Part shown: piece after piece, positions 4,636-6,944 of the stretch
Layout of the letters: each line of letters starts with the position of its first letter
Numbering within the stretch: the first letter of the stretch is position 1
Translations under genes and position numbers: made by a program
From: Thermoplasma sp. Kam2015
GTDB lineage: Archaea > Thermoplasmatota > Thermoplasmata > Thermoplasmatales > Thermoplasmataceae
Direction of reading: 5' to 3'
DNA length: 64,000 bases
NCBI RefSeq assembly: GCF_003205235.1
Contig: NZ_QJSM01000026.1
Location: forward strand, 1-64,000
The notes under the pieces: generated by a model
What the model saw: the letters and a program-made list of their open reading frames with translations, nothing else
What the model was told of the DNA's origin: nothing
The model's database searches: none

Positions 4636-5430
4636 TCATTGAGATTTATACTGCACTGGATCAAACGATCCCTTGTAAAATAGCTTTATTGAACGATCCT
4701 TGAGGGATTCCATGAGACTAACATCAAACTTTCCGGAAAATTCAATATAGAAATAATATTTCCATATGTTGTTCCTAAGAGGCCTGGAATATATCATATT
4801 CATATTTATGCGTCTATCTGAAAAAACTCCGATCAGATCATAAAGGGAGCCAGGCTCGTCCGGTATGATCGATATGATTGAGTGCCTGCTCCCATCAGTA
4901 TTTCTTTCCCTAGATATCACGATGAATCTAGTTATGTTTGGTGTCTCTGGATCGATCTTGACCATGTGCTTCAGTTCGTATTCTGTGGCGGCCCTTTTTG
5001 AGCATAGTGCGGCACCCTTATCATCCCTGCTGGCGAGATCTGCAGCTTCTGACGTGCTAACAGTACTAATTACCTCGATGTTATCCATCTTCTCCAGGAA
5101 TTCCCTTGCTTCTGCAATTGCGTGCGGATGGGAATACACTCTTTCGATGTTCTTTATCTCTGCCTTTGATGCAAGAAATATCTCTATGGGAAAATCTATG
5201 GATCTTGTGATGTAGACGTCGTCATGTATGAAAAGCCCGTCCAGCGTTTCGTTCACCGGCCCCTCTATGCTGTTTTCTATAGGGACAACACCACGCTGAT
5301 CAGTCTCCACCACTTTCTGAAAGATGGCGCTTATTGATCTCTCTGGTTTTACCTCTTGCCCCAGAGCCTCAGCAACCTCATGCGAAAAGCTACCGCGCGG
5401 ACCGAGATAGAATATCATTTTATCAGGCAT
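4636..5430 (-). CDS. pheA: Prephenate dehydratase
   Basis: This monofunctional enzyme converts prephenate to phenylpyruvate in phenylalanine synthesis. The catalytic domain has YLGPRGSFSHE at the N-terminus, PIENSIEGPVNETLDGL, and the TRFIVI motif with the essential Thr-Arg (about residues 165-170). A regulatory ACT domain follows (SIISIIPDEPGSLYDLIG, then YSRP in place of ESRP). About 264 residues, normal for archaea. The longest frame begins at ATG 5436, which overlaps the 3' base of tRNA-Leu(UAA); ATG 5430 or 5418 avoids the overlap. No separate promoter is visible between tRNA and gene, so read-through from the tRNA promoter is likely. Confidence 0.93.
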   Translation of the reverse strand: MPDKMIFYLGPRGSFSHEVAEALGQEVKPERSISAIFQKVVETDQRGVVPIENSIEGPVNETLDGLFIHDDVYITRSIDFPIEIFLASKAEIKNIERVYSHPHAIAEAREFLEKMDNIEVISTVSTSEAADLASRDDKGAALCSKRAATEYELKHMVKIDPETPNITRFIVISRERNTDGSRHSIISIIPDEPGSLYDLIGVFSDRRINMNMIYSRPLRNNIWKYYFYIEFSGKFDVSLMESLKDRSIKLFYKGSFDPVQYKSQ

Positions 5431-5435
5431 TTCCA

Positions 5436-5520
5436 TGCGAGGGGCGGGATTTGAACCCGCGAACCCCTTCGGGACAGGATCTTAAGTCCTGCACTGTTGG
5501 CCTGGCTTAGTTACCCTCGC
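5436..5520 (-). tRNA. tRNA-Leu (UAA)
   Basis: The minus strand folds as an 85-nt class II tRNA. It has a GCGAGGG/CCCTCGC acceptor stem, an anticodon loop with TAA flanked by CT and AG, a long variable arm (CCCGAAGGGG), a T-arm with GGTTCAAATCC, and discriminator A at 5436. No CCA is encoded and no intron is seen. It lies directly upstream of pheA. Confidence 0.96.
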
Positions 5521-5642: not shown

Positions 5643-5921
5643 ATGGCATTTCCCGGTGGCAATTTTCCAACAGATGGTGAGCTTGTTGAATTTGAAACGG
5701 AAGAGGAACCGAAATGGATCACAGTAAAATTGAAAGATGGATCCGTCCTGCAGATAAAGATGGAGATAGTTTCAATTCTCAGGAATGGAAATGATCCCAA
5801 CACAGGAATACCAAATTATATGATCCAGGCTACCAATATAATACGGCTTGTAAAGGTACCGAAGGAACTCATAGTGAAACCGAAGAAAGGAAATGAGCAG
5901 GGCGGCCAGCTCTATAGATGA
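5643..5921 (+). CDS. Small conserved-looking protein of unknown function
   Basis: A 92-residue acidic-to-basic protein that I do not recognise. Predicted beta-rich: WITVKLKDGSVLQIKMEIVSILRNG is a likely beta-hairpin core, followed by a short helix and a basic Lys-rich tail (KELIVKPKKG). No signal peptide or cysteines. The ATG at 5643 follows a TATA-like ATTAATATCTC (about 5613-5623) at the usual leaderless distance, and codon use matches neighbours, so the gene is probably real. It is monocistronic. Confidence 0.65.
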   Translation: MAFPGGNFPTDGELVEFETEEEPKWITVKLKDGSVLQIKMEIVSILRNGNDPNTGIPNYMIQATNIIRLVKVPKELIVKPKKGNEQGGQLYR

Positions 5922-6034
5922 TCTAACTCTCATATGCTGGGATCCTTGTATTACATCTTTAAATAGAAGTTGGTGGTTTGTGGGAAGCAGTAATTCTCCT
6001 TCTTCGTACAAGAGATACACGGACTTCTTCCAAT

Positions 6035-6050
6035 GAAAATATTTATAGAT
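6035..6050 (+). promoter_or_regulatory. TATA-type promoter before the orphan IS605-end-like locus
   Basis: AAAATATTTATAGATT is a good archaeal BRE/TATA match. No protein start lies 20-35 bases downstream on the plus strand, so it would drive the non-coding sequence from about 6070 on. On the minus strand it would fire into the 3' end of the 92-residue gene. Confidence 0.45.
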
Positions 6051-6083
6051 TGTCTTCCCACATTCATTTGCATCATCCACGAT

Positions 6084-6170
6084 GGCTAAGTGGGCGATGC
6101 TTGAGTGGGATCGATGCGATCCGAAGCTTCAGCTGAGGAGTAGCTCACAGACCTGGGTTTACGGCCCAGA
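6084..6170 (+). ncRNA. Orphan IS605 right-end/omega-RNA-like sequence, possible small RNA
   Basis: Bases 6120-6148 (TCCGAAGCTTCAGC...GTAGCTCAC) match the right-end-like sequence at 354-381 almost base for base. In the same relative frame both encode RSFS before the stop, the tail of TnpB. Upstream, GCTT...GGATC / GATCC...AAGC forms a hairpin (6099-6127). Downstream, CTGGG/CCCAG (6153-6157/6165-6169) forms another. A promoter sits at 6035-6050. No other part of tnpB is recognisable nearby. It is either a decayed insertion end or a retained structured RNA derived from one. Confidence 0.4.
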
Positions 6171-6203
6171 GATCAGTAATTTTCGCATAAATATGTTGGT
6201 AAA

Positions 6204-6944
6204 TCACTGTTCCATCCTGGGGGCGAGCAGGAAAAGCCCCTTTATCTTTGCATCAGGATTCTGATCAAGACTGAATTCTACAGACAGCGGATAATCATCT
6301 CTGAAGCTCAACTTCAGGGAATCGGTGGAGGATATTGCCTTTATGAACTTGAGCAGATATTCCAGAGGATATGAGCTCTTTATCGTGGTATTGCATGACA
6401 TATCAGTTATCATATCCTTGGGCAGTATCATCTCTGATTCTTCCGACTCGGAATGTGAATATGCCTTGAAACCGTCCGGAGATAGCGTGAATCTGATAGA
6501 GTCTGATATATCCTCAGCGGCCCTAAGCCCCCTCTCAAAATCTGACTTTTTGACAACAGCATAGTACTCGGATGTTATGTTAGGTATCTTCGGAGTAACT
6601 ATGGTGGATGGATCGAGCAGCGATATGCTCTTATTTATGGTTCCCAGCTCAAATTTAAGCTTCTCACCATCCTTGGTTATGCCCACATTCTCGGAGGAGC
6701 TCGCCAGCCTTATAACCGATTTCAGTCTGTCTATATCAAGAGCGATCTCCTCCTGCCCATCGATATGAAATTCCACAAATGCCTCCTTTGGAACTTCAAG
6801 TCTTATCATTGCCACGTGGGCTGGATCGACAGCGGTAACGCTCATACCGCTATCATCAACCTTGAACTTCGCCTCAGATACTATCGTACTCAGTAAATCC
6901 GTTATTTCCTTAAGATTCTTCACGGAAAGATTCAATCTAATCAT
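6204..6944 (-). CDS. pcn: DNA polymerase sliding clamp (PCNA)
   Basis: The 246-residue protein matches PCNA throughout: N-terminal VSEAKFKVDDSGMSVTAVDPAHVAMI, LDIDRLKSVIRLA before the interdomain connector, and the C-terminal YYLAP-equivalent FLLAPRMEQ. It forms the trimeric ring that tethers polymerase, ligase and FEN1 to DNA. Length is normal. It is read alone; a small hairpin occupies its upstream region. Confidence 0.96.
   Translation of the reverse strand: MIRLNLSVKNLKEITDLLSTIVSEAKFKVDDSGMSVTAVDPAHVAMIRLEVPKEAFVEFHIDGQEEIALDIDRLKSVIRLASSSENVGITKDGEKLKFELGTINKSISLLDPSTIVTPKIPNITSEYYAVVKKSDFERGLRAAEDISDSIRFTLSPDGFKAYSHSESEESEMILPKDMITDMSCNTTIKSSYPLEYLLKFIKAISSTDSLKLSFRDDYPLSVEFSLDQNPDAKIKGLFLLAPRMEQ

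Follow-up and report, generated by a model that had tools for sequence, protein, structure and literature searches.

A compact element between a small ORF and the PCNA gene

In the window, by which we mean the whole 64,000-nucleotide stretch of Thermoplasma sp. Kam2015 DNA that was analysed, the intergenic region between a 92-aa ORF (5643-5921) and the minus-strand PCNA gene (6204-6944) contains a 186 bp element with a left end, a right end and a TTTAA TAM all present (Table 1). An initial annotation had described this region as an orphan IS605 right end that resembles a tnpB tail elsewhere in the window. That likeness was borne out (two mismatches and one gap in the local alignment), as were the TATA box ahead of the piece, which stands at a near-fixed distance from a 5' hairpin in relatives, the folds on both sides of it and the lack of an adjacent transposase gene. 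The proposed IS605/omega-RNA origin and the element's own promoter were also right. What had been overlooked were the left end and the TAM, and neither "orphan right end" nor "decayed insertion end" is a correct description, because the element has both of its ends and a TAM, and transposition of the compact form has occurred in the sister species.

Table 1. Coordinates of the element, its parts and its borders in the window
Feature	Position	Strand	Evidence
TTTAA target/TAM	5958..5962	+	read directly; abuts left end
Compact non-autonomous IS200/IS605-type element, 186 bp	5963..6148	+	ends common to 8 tnpB elements and small elements
Left end (LE), imperfect subterminal hairpin	5963..6036	+	~40 occurrences in genome; DNA fold -7.9 kcal/mol (5963-6040)
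TATA box TTTATA	6042..6047	+	28 nt ahead of 5' hairpin, the commonest family spacing (19/29)
Predicted transcript start (~6070, position from TATA spacing only) and 5' hairpin, typical of tnpB-less copies	6070..6100	+	in 29/36 small copies
Hairpin H1 (GGATCG-ATG-CGATCC), 5' edge of omega-RNA module	6108..6122	+	tnpB-element homology begins near here; paired in V1, V3 and V4 consensus folds
Right end / omega-RNA 3' end, terminus CTCAC	6120..6148	+	26/29 columns match 354-381; 6119-6148 identical in G003 ortholog
Would-be 20-nt guide (flanking DNA)	6149..6168	+	adjoins right end

The element is too short for a transposase gene, and the 92-aa ORF has no Pfam match. Subterminal hairpins lie at both ends (DNA folds of modest stability, taken without a shuffle control), and the omega-RNA-like part shares its 3' end with the right end of the element, placing the guide position in flanking DNA. 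An Rfam search of the window returned three tRNAs only, with no known RNA family at the element, and the RNA fold of the window copy is not persuasive when compared with shuffles (z -1.36, 19/200 as good). At the start of the window, positions 1-420 hold a degenerate tnpB tail. Its PF07282 match (116-181) includes an internal TGA, a zinc-finger-like piece occurs in it as a repeat, its right end has the terminus GCTGAC, and the tail adjoins or runs into the 3' end of an IF-2B family gene on the minus strand (ORF 363-1151).

A dispersed family with and without tnpB

A search of the whole genome with 6035-6200 (75 candidates, 40 of them scored) gave 61 matches. The left part of this query (1-91) has more than 20 matches at 74-86% identity, down to E 3.7e-24, while its right part (about 84-117) is matched dozens of times, to E 5e-10, far above chance. 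These many matches mark the sequence as a member of a dispersed repeat family. Searching with 5950-6065 for the left end gave about 40 genome matches, and at some of these loci, such as C25:11260 and C20:36276, a full tnpB gene follows. When left and right ends were paired in the examined loci of the source genome (G000), at least 36 gene-less elements of less than 400 bp (about 190-330 bp) and eight tnpB-bearing elements (1350-1359 bp) were obtained, with ends common to both. These counts exclude three loci from other genomes (L021, L048 and L025) and nine left ends that lack a pattern-matched right end; a compact copy at C20:148222 is among the nine, and the 36 small copies are a lower bound. 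No plasmid-borne relatives were found. We consider it very probable that the segment 5963-6148 constitutes a complete insertion element of a non-autonomous, PATE-like kind, descended from a tnpB-only IS200/IS605 (IS1341-type) ancestor.

Genomes used for comparison include the sister species (G003), G002, and G001 and G004, which we take to be T. acidophilum and T. volcanium, respectively. The family reaches past the genus, as seen from a 247-bp left-end/right-end element with a partial scaffold in G027, which belongs to another family of the order (L025, 1281-1527). G002 has 22 query matches, mostly right ends, and only four matches to PF07282, which are weak, short or broken; here the gene-less copies have apparently outlived their cognate TnpB.

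The TnpB of the family (409 aa) matches PF01385, PF07282 and PF12323, and a comparison with ISDra2 TnpB structures indicated homology over residues 6-370 (PDB 8bf8, E 1.6e-52). The source genome has 38 PF07282 matches, a figure covering all TnpB kinds, and intact TnpB genes are present. It encodes one Y1 transposase, compared with one, one (with a stop), one and three in G001, G002, G003 and G004, respectively. The ends of the sole Y1 element in the source genome and those of the family have a hairpin motif in common by eye, with no significant BLAST match between them.

Target motif and insertion sites

The left junction of the 44 two-ended elements reads TTTAA or TTTAT in 30, TTA[AT] in 10 more and neither in four, against a background in which TTTA[AT] occurs in 4.7% of 17-mers. 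To look for empty sites, the two flanks of a small element were joined and searched against G001, G002 and G003; this covered 14 of 30 small elements. Four of these flank pairs (L056, L126, L127 and L063) have uninterrupted empty sites in G003, and base-level alignment placed each insertion directly 3' of a TTTAA/TTTAT-like sequence without target duplication, the last bases of these elements being CTCAC (or TTCAC). For L109, only the left side could be aligned, and the other nine pairs gave one side, separated pieces or nothing in G001-G003.

The insertion at the window locus is shared with G003. No such element lies in the gap between the 92-aa ORF and PCNA in G001, G002 or G004, where the intergenic DNA is too diverged to define an empty site. 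Because no relative provides an alignable empty site here, insertion at this locus rests on the family evidence, and the target is readable at the locus itself only as the TAM.

What is seemingly one intergenic spot is occupied in the two species by two different family members in opposite orientation, at ~133,200-133,420 of G000:C26 (L058) and ~5,262-5,453 of G003:C58. On G000:C18 (~183,730-185,180; L119, 141-1812, minus strand), a small sibling is immediately preceded by a tnpB element that takes the place of its TAM, and the guide of this tnpB element is therefore the left end of the sibling. The first 16 bases of that guide match 8 of 43 other left ends with four mismatches or fewer, possibly a case of a TnpB guided against its own family.

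A promoter joined to omega-RNA in the longer siblings

In 29 of the 36 small copies the order is a TATA box (with at most one mismatch), a 5' hairpin, omega-RNA sequence and the right end. The TATA-to-hairpin spacing is 28 nt in 19 of these 29 copies and 25-29 nt in 28, counts that are to be read with the shared descent of the copies in mind. Since about 28% of shuffled sequences contain such a TATA box within the 21 scanned offsets, we place weight on the constancy of the spacing and not on the presence of the box. The tnpB elements examined contain nothing that matches the 5' hairpin segment to a substantial extent, and homology to these elements restarts near the edge of the omega-RNA module, from -2 to +3 in most small copies. 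Exceptions are -4 in each of the G001 copies L146, L148 and L150 (the lowest of its matches), -57 in L151, and later restarts in a few compact, decayed or rearranged copies. Four of the six tnpB-less copies examined in G001 have TTTATA exactly 28 nt ahead of the scaffold. Together with the family's 5' hairpin type, the G001 type thus makes two types with differing spacers in which a left-end promoter would place the transcript start at a structured RNA. On sequence grounds, most small siblings look like omega-RNA genes with a predicted promoter of their own, whose RNA could be loaded into TnpB in trans.

Sixty scaffold sequences fell into four middle types (V1-V4). Their consensus folds are modestly better than column shuffles for V1 (z -2.1), V4 (-2.6) and V3 (-1.5), and not significant for V2 (+0.6). 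Among the eight V4 sequences, nine cells are changed on both sides of a kept pair, which 0/500 shuffles reach, and the covariation score of 0.207 is reached by 2/500; the four pairs with two-sided changes are matched by 132/500 shuffles, and the number of pair types by 292/500. The idea that V4 is confined to tnpB-less copies was rejected, as V4 also occurs at C2:9694-9768 beside a TnpB (C2:9810-10013). Because V4 also adjoins a tnpB, its covariation may be inherited from constraint on the tnpB parents. G001 has six long V4 matches, none of them near a PF07282 match.

Loss of the scaffold core and recent movement

The scaffold of the small siblings is homologous to that of the tnpB elements, and its core, ACGCCTGTGG, is present in 34 of the 36 small copies. 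This core, along with the stem that follows it, is absent from the window copy. The compact, core-less copies are the window copy and its G003 ortholog, G000:C20:148222 and its likely ortholog on G003:C49, and G003:C58. All have GATCCGAA joined directly to GCTT(C/T)AG, as if they had arisen by a deletion between two GATCCGAA repeats; copies within one type share descent, and their deletions may not be independent events. The copy on G003:C58 lies in other surrounding DNA, yet has the same G003-specific changes as the G003 copy at the PCNA site. The compact form therefore moved after the species split, and so neither the scaffold nor tnpB was needed in cis.

Guide function of the window copy

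Guide function was judged by homology to ISDra2, in which, according to the consulted parts of PMC10097598, base pairing joins the scaffold 3' end to a strand lying about 100 nt further upstream, with the stems in between gripped by TnpB. The family counterpart of this pseudoknot and stem region is missing from the window copy, the likely pseudoknot strand and stem 3 both lying in the core. The initial annotation had suggested a small RNA that guides a TnpB encoded elsewhere, which could fit the longer siblings; for the window copy, the absence of the scaffold core counts against it. It had also proposed checking whether the 16-20 bases after 6148 match other TAM-adjacent sites, and none was found: a search of G000-G003 with the TAM and the first 15 guide bases (up to three mismatches) recovered no second site, the sole match being the locus itself, without a TAM. 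Finally, random drift among close strains had been named as a sign against a retained RNA, and this was seen in part: a comparison of G000 with G003 gave 10/186 substituted columns (plus one gap) for the element, 3/55 for the right flank (guide included), 0/27 for the left flank and 30/741 for the PCNA gene. The element drifts no slower than its right flank and there is no sign of constraint. From the missing scaffold, the lack of a second target and the lack of constraint together, we conclude that the window copy probably no longer works as a guide and is carried along as a passenger.

It is very unlikely that the window copy is instead a working trans-acting omega-RNA, whose transcript from 6070 would load TnpB made elsewhere, target the TAM plus 6149-6168 and protect the insertion by cutting the empty site. 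The TATA box at the family spacing, a right end that equals the G003 ortholog over 30 columns and the intact TnpB genes of this genome all fit such a role, but the scaffold core is missing, there is no other TAM-bearing target in the four genomes, and the guide has changed at 1/20 positions between G000 and G003, much as the flank has. Still less credible is that the element has been domesticated as a small RNA that serves the host, for example by acting in antisense on the 3' end of PCNA, which converges on it: the promoter does point at PCNA and the insertion is common to two species, but the element has changed at the rate of its right flank and not below that of the PCNA gene, it is missing from three congeners and it has no Rfam match. 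We give least credence of all to a lone decayed right end left over from a tnpB element. Such a remnant would account for the lack of a coding gene inside and of a transposase gene beside it, but the left end, TAM and right end stand at family positions, the left end by itself already contradicting this explanation, and nearly the same compact form occurs at a new site in G003.

Relation to known elements and implications

For the passenger element favoured here, the closest described kind is the palindrome-associated transposable element (PATE) of Haloquadratum walsbyi. According to the parts of PMC3119063 consulted, PATEs are transposase-free, have palindromes near their ends, lack terminal inverted repeats and target duplications, and outnumber their parents; some of them derive from IS605-type elements by core deletion. 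The Thermoplasma family is likewise transposase-free with subterminal palindromes, no terminal inverted repeats, no target duplication and more copies than its parents. It differs in that most copies keep a promoter joined to the whole omega-RNA scaffold and many have gained a 5' hairpin where the transcript is predicted to begin; we found no mention of a guide RNA for PATEs in the same parts of PMC3119063. Likewise, no description of promoter-driven omega-RNA-only elements was found in a limited check of the literature that included portions of PMC3119063, PMC10097598, PMC10640517, PMC12558985 and PMC11870625, and the frequent promoter-omega-RNA layout of the siblings seems to be new. The tnpB elements of Sulfolobus islandicus are reported to use the TAMs TTTAA and TTTAT, and its tnpB-only (IS1341-type) elements resemble the present family in having this TAM at the left end and a conserved right end followed by the guide (as described in part of PMC10640517), whereas the small elements here have no tnpB and, in the window copy, the scaffold core is missing as well. 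As in ISDra2 (PDB 8bf8, PMC10097598), the full-length relatives encode a homologous TnpB. The omega-RNA of ISDra2 overlaps its own tnpB, whereas here the RNA has been uncoupled from the gene.

In the history that we propose, a Y1 transposase acting in trans would move the window element as single strands by recognising its end hairpins. In most members of the wider family, the left-end promoter would have been retained and fused to the omega-RNA, forming promoter-omega-RNA units, and the window copy would then have lost about 100 nt of scaffold between the two GATCCGAA repeats. A short RNA may still be made from this copy, but it would not be a normal TnpB guide, and the copy would persist as a passenger whose form can still move.

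TnpB is thought to secure the retention of its transposon by cleaving empty sites, for which the same locus supplies the guide. As a tentative and rather doubtful extension, Thermoplasma genomes may contain dozens of mobile, stand-alone, predicted promoter-driven omega-RNA genes that outnumber the TnpB gene and load TnpB in trans, so that one nuclease would guard many sites, each with its own guide. In that case the window copy would be a parasite of the second generation, one that has dropped its guide and still moves. The full tnpB copies, omega-RNA-only copies and scaffold-less compact copies form a natural series with the same ends in one genome, which suits the testing of retention in trans. 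If the gene-less copies do make their own guide and borrow TnpB, retention would work in trans and would be open to exploitation by parasites of the parasite.
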